DNA from: Deltaproteobacteria bacterium
GTDB lineage: Bacteria; Desulfobacterota; Desulfobulbia; Desulfobulbales; Desulfurivibrionaceae
DNA: 64,000 bases
Direction: 5' to 3'
NCBI GenBank assembly: GCA_021802645.1
Contig: JAJZRO010000001.1
Coordinates: forward strand, 62,001-126,000
Below the pieces are notes generated by a model. The model was not told the DNA's origin, did no database searches, and was given only the letters and a program-made list of their open reading frames with translations. How positions within the stretch are numbered: position 1 is the first letter of the stretch; every line of letters begins with the position of its first letter. The position numbers were made by a program, and so were the translations under genes. Below, piece by piece: positions 29,398 through 37,433 of this stretch.

Positions 29398-31544
<2,147 letters not shown>

Positions 31545-31563
<19 letters not shown>

Positions 31564-31880
31564 GCCGCACTGGGGGCAGGGCCAGGGCCAGCCTGTTTGA
31601 CTTCCGGATGCATGGGGCAGGTATAGAGCTGTTCGTGGCCCATGGGGTGGGAATCCTTACCCGCCGCGTGGTGATGCAGCGGTGCCGCGCCATACTGCCG
31701 GGGATTCTGCTCGAACTTCCGGCGGCAGCCGTCGCTGCAAAAATAATACTTCCTGCCGCCATATTCGAACTCCCCGGCCGCCTCGGCCGACGACACGGTC
31801 ATGCCACATACCGGATCGGTTTGGTGCGGCATCGCATGACCGGTTCCGTGCTGGTGGCCTTTTCCCTCCTGCATCTCCAT
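31545..31880 (-). pseudogene. N-terminal YHS and metal-binding part of the copper ATPase, frameshifted
   Basis: From the ATG at 31880 (GGGAGGAGCAG just upstream): a His-rich start, then a YHS domain (DPVCGMTVSS and YFCSDGCRRKF), a second His cluster and [16 protein letters not shown]. At that point the frame should continue [10 protein letters not shown] into the ATPase, but one base is missing in the GGCCCTGCCCCC run, so the frame reads out as [10 protein letters not shown] and stops. The next frame carries the rest of the pump. Together 29398-31880 would be one gene with YHS plus two CPMHPEV domains. Confidence 0.8.
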
Positions 31881-33328: not shown

Positions 33329-33862
33329 TTACCGCGTCGTCCGTTCCAGAATCCTCGCCACCGGCGGCCGATCCGCCGGACCTTCCCCTACGTGATGCAA
33401 GCGAACAATCCCCGCCGGGTCGATGAGCACGTCGCCGCCGCGCTGAGAGATGTCGCCGTGGGATGGCTGGAGATGCTGGCCGTGCAGCAGGGCCTTGCAG
33501 TAGGCCCACCAGCTCTTGGGGCCCCAGATGTCCCAGAACGAGGCGGTGAGCATGCCGTAGGCCCGATAGAGTTCACGTTGTTCGTCGATCAGGATCGGCC
33601 AGATCAGGCCGGTCTCGGCAACGTATTGCCGGGCAAGGAAGCCGGCCTCGAAGGTGACCACCGCGATGCGCACATTGCGGCGGGTGAATTCCTCTTCCTG
33701 CTCCCGCAACTGCGAGAGATGCTGCCGGCAGGGGAGTCACCCGAGGTGGCGGTGGAAGACCATGAGCAGCCAGTGGCCGCGGAACTCCTCCAGGGTATGC
33801 ACGGTGCCCGTGGCATCGGGCAGACGAAAGGGTGCGGCGGGCAACCCTGAACGAGCCGGCAT
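33329..33862 (-). CDS. Peroxiredoxin-like (AhpC/TSA-type) selenoprotein with UxxC site
   Basis: 177 residues if the in-frame TGA at 33739-33737 is read as selenocysteine 42. The two halves are in the same frame with no shift: the first ends VFHRHLG, then TGA, then LPCRQHLSQLREQEEEF. In this thioredoxin-fold family the position is normally Cys (HLGCxxCR), so the site becomes U-L-P-C. Downstream homology runs on without a break (IAVVTFEAG, GDVLIDPAGIVRLHHV). A SECIS-like hairpin starts 19 bases after the TGA. Start ATG 33862 has GAGGAGGAGCG. Likely reduces peroxides or disulfides. A nonsense mutation is the alternative, but selenocysteine fits better. Confidence 0.8.
33701..33718 (-). promoter_or_regulatory. 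Candidate bacterial SECIS hairpin of the Sec-peroxiredoxin
   Basis: On the mRNA, CUCUCGC pairs with GCGGGAG around an AGUU loop; the loop begins 26 bases after the UGA and has G at its second position. This meets the loose rules known for bacterial SECIS elements (small loop with an early G, 16-37 bases after UGA). Confidence 0.55.
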
Positions 33863-33975: not shown

Positions 33976-34509
33976 CTATTCCTTCATGAATTCCCACGCC
34001 TTTTCATGGATCTTCTGCTGGAGCTCCCACATCTCTTTGCGCTTCTTGAGAAGCTCCGCCTTGGTCGTCTTGGGGTTGCGGGCCGCCTCGCCGTATTCGA
34101 ACTGCTTGTCGTGCAGCTTCCTGCGCATGTCCTTGGTGGCATCCAGGAACTTCTGCTGCTCGTCCTGGGTCATGTTACCCATCATCCAACCCATCATGCC
34201 GTGGCCGTAACCGGAGCCACCCATCATGCCGCAGGCGCCCATGCCCATGCCGCCGCCCATCATCCCGCCTTGGCCACCCATCATACCCATCATGCCACCC
34301 TGGCCCATCATACCGGGGGCCATCATGCCGCCCTGGCCGCCCATCATACCGGGGGCCATCGTCCCGCCGCCCATCATGCCCTGCCCCATCTGGGAAGCCG
34401 TGGACTGATCCGTCGCTGCCGCCGCTCCATGGTGGGTGGTTTCTGCCGACACGGTGCCGGCGGCCAAAATCCCTGCCAGTGCGGTGACAAGCAAAAGTTT
34501 CTTTTTCAT
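33976..34509 (-). CDS. Met/Gly-rich periplasmic metal-resistance protein (Spy/CpxP/ZraP-like)
   Basis: 177 residues from the ATG at 34509 (AAGGAGGACACC upstream). Longer starts are excluded because they would run through a terminator hairpin at 34555-34589. Signal peptide 1-22 (ends VSAET). A repeat zone (about 40-100) is built from GGQGGMM/APGMM units with many Met, likely copper or silver binding. The C-terminal helix pair (TQDEQQKFLDATKDMRRKL, KKRKEMWELQQKIHEKAW) matches the metal-resistance (Metal_resist) fold. It fits the copper ATPase nearby. Confidence 0.85.
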   Translation of the reverse strand: MKKKLLLVTALAGILAAGTVSAETTHHGAAAATDQSTASQMGQGMMGGGTMAPGMMGGQGGMMAPGMMGQGGMMGMMGGQGGMMGGGMGMGACGMMGGSGYGHGMMGWMMGNMTQDEQQKFLDATKDMRRKLHDKQFEYGEAARNPKTTKAELLKKRKEMWELQQKIHEKAWEFMKE

Positions 34510-34554: not shown

Positions 34555-34589
34555 AAAAAAGGAACCGACAGCATACATCTGTCGGTTCC
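34555..34589 (-). terminator. Rho-independent terminator of the sbtA-like gene
   Basis: GGAACCGACAG and CTGTCGGTTCC (11-bp perfect stem, 7-base loop, 34561-34589) followed on the minus strand by TTTTTT (34560-34555). It ends the transcript of the selenopeptide gene about 30 bases after its stop and just after the last SECIS-like hairpin. Confidence 0.88.
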
Positions 34590-34595
34590 TTCCCA

Positions 34596-34616
34596 GCCGG
34601 TGCGCACGGCACCGGC
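34596..34616 (-). promoter_or_regulatory. SECIS-like hairpin for the third Sec codon (spans the 3' UTR)
   Basis: GCCGGUGC pairs perfectly with GCACCGGC (8 bp) around loop CGUGC, G second. The loop starts 21 bases after the UGA at 34631-34629. Because the reading frame ends only three codons after this UGA, the hairpin lies entirely beyond the TAA stop and is free of coding constraint, which makes it good evidence for a decoding role. Confidence 0.65.
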
Positions 34617-34619
34617 GAT

Positions 34620-34928
34620 TTATCCGCTTCAGCCGCTGGAGGCGGGTTTTTGCTTCGGTTTTTCCTGATCCGGCATGGTGGCCGGCGTTTTCCCTTTCTG
34701 TTTCTCGCCACCCGGCTTTTCCGGAGCGCTCCCGGCGCCCCCCATGCTCCCGCTTCAGCCGCTGCCTGCGGGCTTTTCCTGGGTTACGGCGCCGCCGGCG
34801 CCGCCACTCCCGGTTCAGCCGCTGCTTCCCGCCTTGTCCGCCGCCTGGGCCACGCCCAGGCCGGCGCCGGCAATCAGACCCGCCACCCCAAGGCCAGCCA
34901 GCACCTTTTTGAGTTCCCTGCTATCCAC
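34620..34928 (-). CDS. sbtA: SbtA-like selenopeptide precursor with three in-frame TGA (Sec) codons
   Basis: Reading from the GTG at 34928 (AAGGAGG 5 bases upstream) gives 102 residues if TGA is Sec: Sec38 (34817-34815), Sec58 (34757-34755), Sec100 (34631-34629), then Ser-Gly-TAA. All three sit in the same context, SSGU, GSGU and SSGU, followed by TGSGG, SGSMG and SG. The N-terminus DSRELKKVLAGLGVAGLIAGAGLGVAQA looks like a leader with a possible cleavage at AQA-A (shown here as two halves: DSRELKKVLAGL, then GVAGLIAGAGLGVAQA). Gly/Ser/Lys/Pro-rich core between. It has its own promoter and terminator. This matches my memory of the SbtA family, precursors whose Cys or Sec residues are modified by the radical SAM enzyme SbtM, encoded 0.9 kb upstream. 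Product structure and function unknown. Confidence 0.8.
34723..34741 (-). promoter_or_regulatory. SECIS-like hairpin for the second Sec codon
   Basis: GGGGCGC pairs with GCGCUCC (7 bp, one G-U) around loop CGGGA, which begins 21 bases after the UGA at 34757-34755 and has G second, the same distance and loop pattern as for the third Sec codon. Confidence 0.6.
34787..34803 (-). promoter_or_regulatory. SECIS-like hairpin for the first Sec codon
   Basis: A perfect 7-bp inverted repeat (CGGCGCC and GGCGCCG) around a 3-base loop GGC. The loop begins 19 bases after the UGA at 34817-34815. The region is GC-repetitive, so alternative pairings exist. Confidence 0.5.
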
Positions 34929-34997
34929 CTGCGCCTCCTTTGTCGGTAATCCGTGACGCCATGCGGCCGAACATTCCGGACCGCCTTCCCTTTTCAG

Positions 34998-35025
34998 GAT
35001 ATATGCCAGCCCTTTTCGCTGTCAA
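34998..35025 (-). promoter_or_regulatory. Promoter of the sbtA-like gene
   Basis: On the minus strand TTGACA (35025-35020) is followed after 16 bases by TATATC (35003-34998), about 70 bases before the GTG start. It gives the selenopeptide gene its own transcript, separate from the nuclease-like gene upstream. Confidence 0.6.
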
Positions 35026-35861: not shown

Positions 35862-37433
35862 TCAACCGCCGGGCGGCAGAAAACAATAGGGGTCGCGCTG
35901 CGCCGTCACCTCAAGGCCGAAGCCGTAGGCCACGGCAAGACAGCCACCGCAGACCGGCCGGATCGCACACCCGCGGCAGGCCTGGCTGCCGGCCCGGTAT
36001 CGGCTGGCGGCCGCCGCATCGTAGAGGGTGGCCAGCCGCTCCTCGTGAAGGTTGCCGATGGGGGAGGGAAACTTGCGGCAGGCATGGGTCTCGCCGTCGG
36101 AGAGCACCGAGAGGAAGTTGAAGGCGGCACCGCAGCCGTAGCCGGTGCAACCGCCGAAAAGCGGCAGTCCCTCCTGGTGGCGCAGCAGATTGAACAGATT
36201 GTCCTTGAGGCCGAGGCTGGAATTCTGCGTTGCCGCGGCGAGATAGTCGGCGAGAAAATCCCGGTATTCCTCCGGCCGCACCGAAAGGAGCTGCGCCCCC
36301 TCCCCCACCATGGCCAGGCGATTGAAGGTAAAAAGATCGACCTTGCCGCGCAGCAGTTCGGCGAGCGGCAGCACCTGGCCGAGGTTGTCGCGGGTAAGGG
36401 TCAGCATCACCATGGTGTAGATGCCGAATTCCTTGAGCAGATCGAGGAAGGCGAGCACCCGCTCAAAGTGGCCGGCCCCGCGGATGAAGTCGTTGTGGGC
36501 CGGGAGCCCTTCGAGGCTGACCTGGAAAAAAACCGGCGGCTGGATGGCGACGAGCCTCTCGATCTCGTGGCGGCTCGCGGGATTGCCGAGGATGGCGGTG
36601 TTGCAACCCCGTTCCGTGGCGGCCCGGTAAAGAGCGAAAAAATCGGGATGCAGCAACGGATTGCCGCCGGAAAAGGAGACCTGGCCCAGCACCTGACGCA
36701 CAAGGCAGAAATCCCGCAGGTCGTCGAGGATTTTCAGCCCCTGGGCCAGGGAGACCGGCGGCCGGGAACTGCGGTCGTAGCAGTGCTTGCAGTGGAGATC
36801 GCAGGCCTGGGTGATGTGCCACTGCAGGGTGAAGACTTCGGCAACGAGAAATTCTTCCCCGACGCCGGCCAGCGGGAACATGGACTCATCCCGCCGGAGG
36901 CGGGAAGGCGGGGCCAGCAACAGGCCGCGCGCCACCGCCCGCCGCAGCGCCTGATCGACGGCGCCTACCGGCACGCCGCCTTCCGCCGCGGCGGCCTGCG
37001 GATCGATGCCCTCGACCACCAGCTTGAGCACCAGGAGATCCTCGTCGGTGGCCGGCCGGCAGCGTACCATCCCGTCGTTCGGCGCCCACCAGACCAGCAG
37101 CCGTTCGCCACCAGGTTGCGGCGCGGGGGACGCCGAATCGCGTCCGGTCAGGGCCGCCAGCCCCTGCCACCCGGACTCCACCAGTTGCAGGGTGGGGTTG
37201 AGCGCCAGACTGCGCACCGGGGCGACAACGGCCGCTGCCTCGCGGGCGGCGTGCCTCGCCCACTCCAGGACGGCGAGATCGGCAAGAAAGGGGGGAATTC
37301 CCGCCTCGGTGGCAGCGCGAAGCCGGGCAGGAAAGCGGGAGGGGTCGTCCGTCTCCTCGGTCAGCCGCTGCCAAAGGGCGGATGGAAGCCGCGGCTGGCA
37401 GGCCGGATAGATGGCTTTCCAGGGGTTGGTCAC
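35862..37433 (-). CDS. sbtM: Radical SAM/SPASM-like selenopeptide maturase (SbtM-like)
   Basis: 523 residues from a GTG at 37433. An N-terminal region of about 200 residues (Trp- and Ala-rich, no known fold) is followed by the radical SAM core with the 4Fe-4S ligands CDLHCKHC (211-218), the SAM-binding FSGGNPLLHP region and a C-terminal Cys cluster (CTGYGC, THACRKFPSPIGN, ACRGCAIRPVCGGC, PYC) typical of SPASM-type auxiliary clusters. The N-terminal extension plus the nearby Sec-containing precursor fit SbtM, predicted to make thio- or selenoether/oxazole-type links in SbtA. Directly follows the RNase H-like gene by one base. Alternatives: another SPASM maturase, but no other precursor is nearby. 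Confidence 0.8.
   Translation of the reverse strand: MTNPWKAIYPACQPRLPSALWQRLTEETDDPSRFPARLRAATEAGIPPFLADLAVLEWARHAAREAAAVVAPVRSLALNPTLQLVESGWQGLAALTGRDSASPAPQPGGERLLVWWAPNDGMVRCRPATDEDLLVLKLVVEGIDPQAAAAEGGVPVGAVDQALRRAVARGLLLAPPSRLRRDESMFPLAGVGEEFLVAEVFTLQWHITQACDLHCKHCYDRSSRPPVSLAQGLKILDDLRDFCLVRQVLGQVSFSGGNPLLHPDFFALYRAATERGCNTAILGNPASRHEIERLVAIQPPVFFQVSLEGLPAHNDFIRGAGHFERVLAFLDLLKEFGIYTMVMLTLTRDNLGQVLPLAELLRGKVDLFTFNRLAMVGEGAQLLSVRPEEYRDFLADYLAAATQNSSLGLKDNLFNLLRHQEGLPLFGGCTGYGCGAAFNFLSVLSDGETHACRKFPSPIGNLHEERLATLYDAAAASRYRAGSQACRGCAIRPVCGGCLAVAYGFGLEVTAQRDPYCFLPPGG

Follow-up and report, generated by a model that had tools for sequence, protein, structure and literature searches.

The SbtA/SbtM system (TIGR04081/TIGR04082) pairs a precursor of a ribosomally synthesized and post-translationally modified peptide (RiPP) with a radical S-adenosylmethionine (SAM)/SPASM maturase, and the published chemistry of SbtM on cysteine (Cys) and selenocysteine (Sec) peptides leads to a thio(seleno)oxazole (PMC11002830). 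A 2026 review names TIGR04081 Selenobacteriocin, and its example of the system has two Sec residues (PMC13188914); the literature passages dealing with SbtA give its chemistry or its name, and no role. The captophorins (bufferins, oxazolin and fontiphorin; MNIO + HvfC/BufC, PME-type 1) likewise carry thiooxazole made from Cys. In bufferins and oxazolin, a secretory-pathway signal peptide doubles as the leader, the partner of the enzyme is a DUF2063-RRE (RiPP recognition element) protein, Cys becomes 5-thiooxazole, the products bind copper, and about 16% of Buf2 have been predicted with lipoprotein signals (PMC12452194; PMC12668002; PMC13419390). The modified SbtM peptide shows the same 305 nm band as thiooxazole peptides (PMC12668002), and MNIO chemistry activates oxygen (PMC13419390). 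We describe here an sbtA gene and its sbtM in a stretch of 64,000 nucleotides (“the window”: contig JAJZRO010000001.1, positions 62,001 to 126,000, assembly GCA_021802645.1) from a deltaproteobacterium of the Desulfurivibrionaceae. By its sequence the gene belongs to the known SbtA/SbtM kind; the unexpected part is an HvfC-like domain of SbtM.

The sbtA gene occupies positions 34620..34928 of the minus strand, where a GTG at 34928, preceded by the Shine-Dalgarno AAAGGAGG at 34941-34934, opens a frame of 102 residues that runs to the TAA at 34622-34620 if TGA is read as Sec. Its three in-frame TGAs (34817-34815, 34757-34755 and 34631-34629, corresponding to Sec 38, 58 and 100) all stand in the context S-G-TGA, the SG-Sec/Cys core motif of SbtA precursors, and it is because of these three internal “stop” codons that normal gene-calling software skips the gene. 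Residues 1-26, the leader (34851..34928, minus strand), show a charged start, a hydrophobic core and then AQA, and match TIGR04081 at 44.7 bits against a cut-off of 30.5; besides this, the NCBIfam scan of the precursor gave only a MAP_0585 match below cut-off, with no match to any HvfA or Buf family. The leader is matched a single time in the 2.55-Mb genome of the host. A sigma-70-like promoter lies upstream (34996..35025, minus strand; TTGACA from 35025, an 18-nt spacer, TATCCT to 34996), with 10 of 12 consensus matches and 0.2 such sites expected in the scan. The frame with its GTG start and Shine-Dalgarno, the promoter and the SbtA-like identity of the product had all been claimed by the original prediction, and each was recovered. 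The intrinsic terminator that it had also proposed (about 34555..34590, minus strand) is plain by eye, as a 12-bp stem followed by a T run, yet it was not listed by a simple terminator scan. Since the leader exceeds the TIGR04081 cut-off and the three TGAs are the best places for a selenocysteine insertion sequence (SECIS) in the 64 kb, the frame goes beyond chance: on sequence grounds, sbtA is a genuine member of the SbtA family with three predicted Sec residues.

Each of the TGAs is followed by a hairpin of 6 bp on the minus strand: at 34803-34787 with the loop CGGCG (first site, 34787..34817), at 34740-34724 with CGGGA (second, 34724..34757), and at 34614-34598 with CGUGC (third, 34598..34631). 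The last of them stays untranslated, lying past the TAA stop codon. All three have strict geometry, the first at spacer 11, and all of them fit the published model of the bacterial SECIS, with a G in the first two loop positions and the loop 16-37 nt from the UGA (PMC13188914). A covariance model (R1), built from 80 sites of relatives chosen for a perfect stem and with the window excluded, was then searched against both strands of the window. The three sbtA TGAs took ranks 1-3, the third site with 32.4 bits (E 3e-5), the second with 30.1 bits (E 9.5e-5) and the first with 22.3 bits (E 0.0045), always with the UGA at model position 1; a fourth match reached 12.5 bits (E 0.61), all these E-values being rough. 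Run over the host genome, R1 gave no match among the 150 of 1827 candidates scored, whereas the direct search of the window does match. The Rfam search of the window gave no match. The machinery for decoding is present too, as the original prediction would have it: a tRNA-Sec (selC) with anticodon UCA, selA (636 bits), selB (346 bits) and selD (379 bits). The selD gene (L048) has one in-frame TGA, and therefore the selenophosphate synthetase of this genome is likely itself a selenoprotein.

In the class, 128 genomes have SbtM over cut-off; the SbtM regions fetched from 100 of them form, together with the window, the 101 loci covered by the comparison with relatives, in which SbtA was located with a hidden Markov model of the leader. 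Sec sites were taken from 75 of these loci, the other 26 lacking a leader in the stretch that was fetched. The SbtA TGAs are followed by a 6-bp hairpin with a loop of 5 nt, and the strict test for it, which requires a G among the first two loop bases, was passed by 151 of 194 sites and by 0.84% of shuffles; the loop G is the second base in all 151. The stem occurs in 43 sequence types, and at the 80 perfect-stem sites 95 cells had changed on both sides, vs 25 in shuffles. As the strict counts select for pairing, an unselected control was made at fixed spacers on all 144 internal sites outside the window: paired cells amounted to 79.9% at spacer 14 and 53.1% at spacer 11, in contrast with 30.6% in shuffles and 20-42% at the 16 other spacers between 6 and 23. 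Of 48 terminal Sec sites, 33 have a hairpin that passes the strict test, in all 33 past the stop codon, and at internal sites, since the hairpin sequence is translated there, it is what encodes the recurring SAGS/SAVS after the Sec residues. Thus, all three TGAs of the window's sbtA have behind them a SECIS hairpin of this covarying kind, and sequence comparison predicts all three as Sec codons, as had been proposed.

Some results count against this assignment. Single-sequence folds of the three window regions had no advantage in stability over shuffles (z -0.50, 0.59 and -1.58), and being uninformative they leave the SECIS case resting on comparison. Among the relatives, 43 of the 194 Sec sites fail the strict hairpin test and 25 fail a loose one, and precursors with at least three Sec have a hairpin at every site in 17 (strict) or 21 (loose) of 35 cases. 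The most extreme precursor (L150) has six in-frame TGAs in 124 residues, the first two of them four codons apart, and passes the SECIS test at 2 of its 6 sites.

Three Sec residues in one precursor had been considered new, as had its position in this genome, and neither idea survived the comparison. The SbtA leader is present in 74 of the 100 fetched SbtM regions, with an in-frame TGA counted as Sec in 72 of these 74. The 75 precursors (194 sites) comprise 2 with no Sec, 4 with one, 34 with two, 22 with three, 10 with four, 2 with five and 1 with six, so that three Sec was rejected as an unusual feature: 35 of 75 have at least three by the rule applied, or 34 if the doubtful L056, which escaped that rule and probably has two Sec and not four, is taken as two. 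According to this rule, a TGA no more than 3 codons past a Sec, without a later motif, was taken as the stop (14 cases); two TGAs after EGC were also excluded as stops. SG precedes 155 of the 196 TGA sites. Among SbtA precursors, readings with three to five Sec in a chain of 100-130 residues are frequent, whereas the passages of the review that deal with numbers give one Sec for most families and 2-3 for a small subset (PMC13188914). Two precursors, L148 and L149, contain only Cys and no Sec, and are natural Cys versions. In the 14 precursors delimited by the rule (e.g., L058, L060, L062, L066, L133 and L144), a TGA read as Sec and a TGA read as stop stand within 3 codons in one gene; a hairpin was found at 1 of the 14 TGAs judged to be true stops close to Sec, and it would presumably be the hairpin that lets the cell distinguish TGAs separated by a few bases.

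With regard to distribution, SbtM exceeds its cut-off in 128 of the 257 genomes of the class. SbtA and SbtM occur together in 123 of them, SbtM alone in 5, SbtA alone in 10 and neither in 119, many of the assemblies being incomplete; in other words, 123 of the 128 SbtM genomes have an SbtA leader somewhere. The family named in the original prediction was correct and known. The host itself probably falls in the Desulfurivibrio/Desulfobulbales group and not in Geobacter. Both genes share one strand in 75 of the 75 pairs examined, and SbtA is upstream of SbtM in 67 of 75 loci. The window is one of the 8 with SbtA downstream and in this respect departs from the majority, as it does from the review example in having three Sec and not two. 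In the window, sbtM (35862..37433, minus strand) lies 0.9 kb upstream of sbtA on the same strand, and it encodes a Radical_SAM + SPASM maturase, thio(seleno)oxazole-forming by family, with 712.9 bits to TIGR04082 (cut-off 350).

The 196 N-terminal residues of this SbtM (36846..37433, minus strand) form an HvfC/BufC-like (DUF2063-RRE) recognition domain. The resemblance was first noticed in the DUF2063 motif and was tested afterwards. Fold, bridging proteins and profile point to homology of the domain with HvfC/BufC, which serves MNIO enzymes as their DUF2063-RRE partner. Of the 7995 candidates scored in a homologue search with the N-domain, at least 18 came out at E <= 10, one of them with DUF2063. 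Three proteins of about 250 amino acids (P0016, P0020 and P0021) stand halfway between HvfC and the N-domain. No paper linking SbtM to DUF2063 or HvfC was found in the passages reached of the open-access literature. The host genome lacks a free-standing DUF2063 protein. The captophorins and SbtA/SbtM would have in common an HvfC-like recognition domain, a signal-peptide-like leader, some of them of the lipoprotein type, and several modified residues per chain; SbtM differs in being a radical SAM/SPASM enzyme with the HvfC-like domain fused and without MNIO, and the modified residues of SbtA are mostly Sec, whereas those of captophorins are Cys. In pearlin biosynthesis, the MNIO TglH has TglI (8hi7) as its partner. 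Unlike the N-domain of SbtM, TglI is a separate protein, and the TglI/TglH system has a precursor lacking a signal peptide and a different chemistry (PMC12452194).

Several results speak against this homology. In a Pfam scan of 47 SbtM N-domains, sigma-70 region 4 and HTH_29 come first with 4 domains each, followed by NGO1945_C (best 8.3e-4) and DUF2063 (best 0.023) with 3 of 47 each. HvfC went undetected in 36 of the 47, including that of the window, which does not reach the curated cut-off for HvfC. Neither do the bridging proteins reach the curated cut-off of either family. Foldseek with the N-domain gave no match at E <= 0.001, and 3dee was not among the 50 matches listed; searches of PDB sequences gave weak matches, chiefly to O-GlcNAc transferase, and did not reach 3dee.

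The leader, for its part, reads like a secretory signal peptide. Residues 2-9 contain K/R in 75 of the 75 leaders, residues 10-26 are uncharged in 71, and 11 have a lipobox; that of the window runs GVAQA-ADKAGSSGU. With these features the SbtA peptide would likely be exported. The AxA motif alone is a weak sign, because its strict form, present in 41 of 68 leaders, is only in modest excess over the shuffled mean of 31. A further result detracts from a metal-related role, in that SbtM has no conserved metal-handling neighbor: of the window's own candidates, a P-type ATPase recurs in 2 of the 100 fetched loci and a Met-rich, putatively secreted protein in 0. The latter (33976-34509, minus strand; no family match) is very rich in Met/Gly (MMGG), starts like a signal peptide and is encoded between sbtA and a redoxin gene.

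Taken together, the explanation in which we place fairly good confidence is that of an SbtA precursor with three predicted Sec, which SbtM likely converts to selenooxazoles; the peptide would likely be exported, and metal binding is predicted for it. The TGAs would be read as Sec by means of the SECIS hairpins, and SbtM, judging from its published chemistry, would turn Sec into selenooxazole. The leader may serve both as the handle for the HvfC-like domain of SbtM and as the signal peptide, in which case no dedicated transporter or protease would be needed. Finally, by analogy with bufferins and captophorins, the exported peptide might act in the cell envelope by sequestering a soft metal, copper or another one, this metal binding being the least certain step. 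Sulfur-cycling Desulfobulbales are anaerobes, as the hosts would be. MNIO uses oxygen, and MNIO (PF05114) is over cut-off in 1 of the 257 genomes, and absent from that of the host, vs 128 for SbtM; for these reasons, and because of the HvfC-like domain and the signal-like leaders, we propose that SbtA/SbtM may be an oxygen-independent selenium counterpart of bufferins and captophorins, with the same heterocycle, a similar signal-peptide-led precursor, HvfC-type recruitment, and a fused radical SAM enzyme in place of MNIO. This is a tentative proposal, toward which we lean slightly less than away from it. The sole MNIO genome (G244) is also the only one of 193 relatives with DUF2063 over cut-off, and has an HvfA/HvfB/HvfC-like cluster (L262) in which the MNIO frame is partly masked. 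If the proposal were true, half of a class of anaerobes would export chains that each offer several selenooxazoles as ligands for metal. Homology of the N-domain to HvfC/BufC also suggests that two unrelated oxidative enzymes, one of them oxygen-requiring, have been joined to one recognition module for the same kind of ligand. It would bear on the function of the whole SbtA family, i.e., on signal-peptide recognition, export and metal binding.

Other explanations share part of this evidence. SbtA could serve in redox reactions or in selenium storage, with its Sec residues kept as selenols or as a selenide store and SbtM acting on some sites only. Several Sec per chain might suggest this, as might a SelL-related redoxin encoded downstream in the window, whose gene also contains an in-frame TGA and has homologues directly downstream of SbtA in L058 and L060. 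The redoxin was nevertheless found in 2 of 100 loci only, SbtA and SbtM co-occur almost strictly, and SbtM acts on Cys and Sec peptides (PMC11002830), all of which makes such a role unlikely. The name Selenobacteriocin implies instead a secreted selenium antibiotic and not a metal-binding or envelope peptide, but the passages of the review on selenobacteriocin contain no activity test (PMC13188914), and no transporter, protease or immunity family is prominent beside SbtA/SbtM in the 101 loci, as far as a crude open reading frame (ORF) caller and clusters without family annotation can tell; we consider an antibiotic improbable.

That the TGAs of the window are true stops, in a decayed or chance frame, would agree with the lack of a significant folding z-score and with the sole same-genus genome examined, which has neither SbtA nor SbtM over cut-off. 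This idea can hardly be sustained against the SECIS model result and the unselected pairing control, the conserved leader, the promoter and the Sec machinery of the genome, together with the in-frame TGAs of nearly all precursors found in SbtM regions.

The remaining genes around sbtA vary from locus to locus, and there is no shared third gene. Within about 5 kb, no neighbor cluster extends to more than 24 of 101 loci, and the largest one lies on both strands; these single-linkage clusters come from the crude ORF caller mentioned above, which in GC-rich DNA also yields antisense frames. Between sbtM and sbtA lies an Exo_endo_phos gene (PF03372; 35059..35802, minus strand), which is probably outside the SbtA/SbtM system, as its homologues, found in 11 of 100 loci, come mostly from close relatives (10 from the same family). 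The P-type ATPase frame (29398-31880, minus strand) was named by eye as one for heavy metals; the frame 31545-31880, which overlaps its upstream part, also looks metal-binding by eye, and the two may represent a split or frameshifted gene. The redoxin (33329-33862, minus strand; NF040769, 194 bits) has its in-frame TGA at 33739-33737 (HLG-U-LPC), and would be a second selenoprotein gene of the window that gene callers would break.
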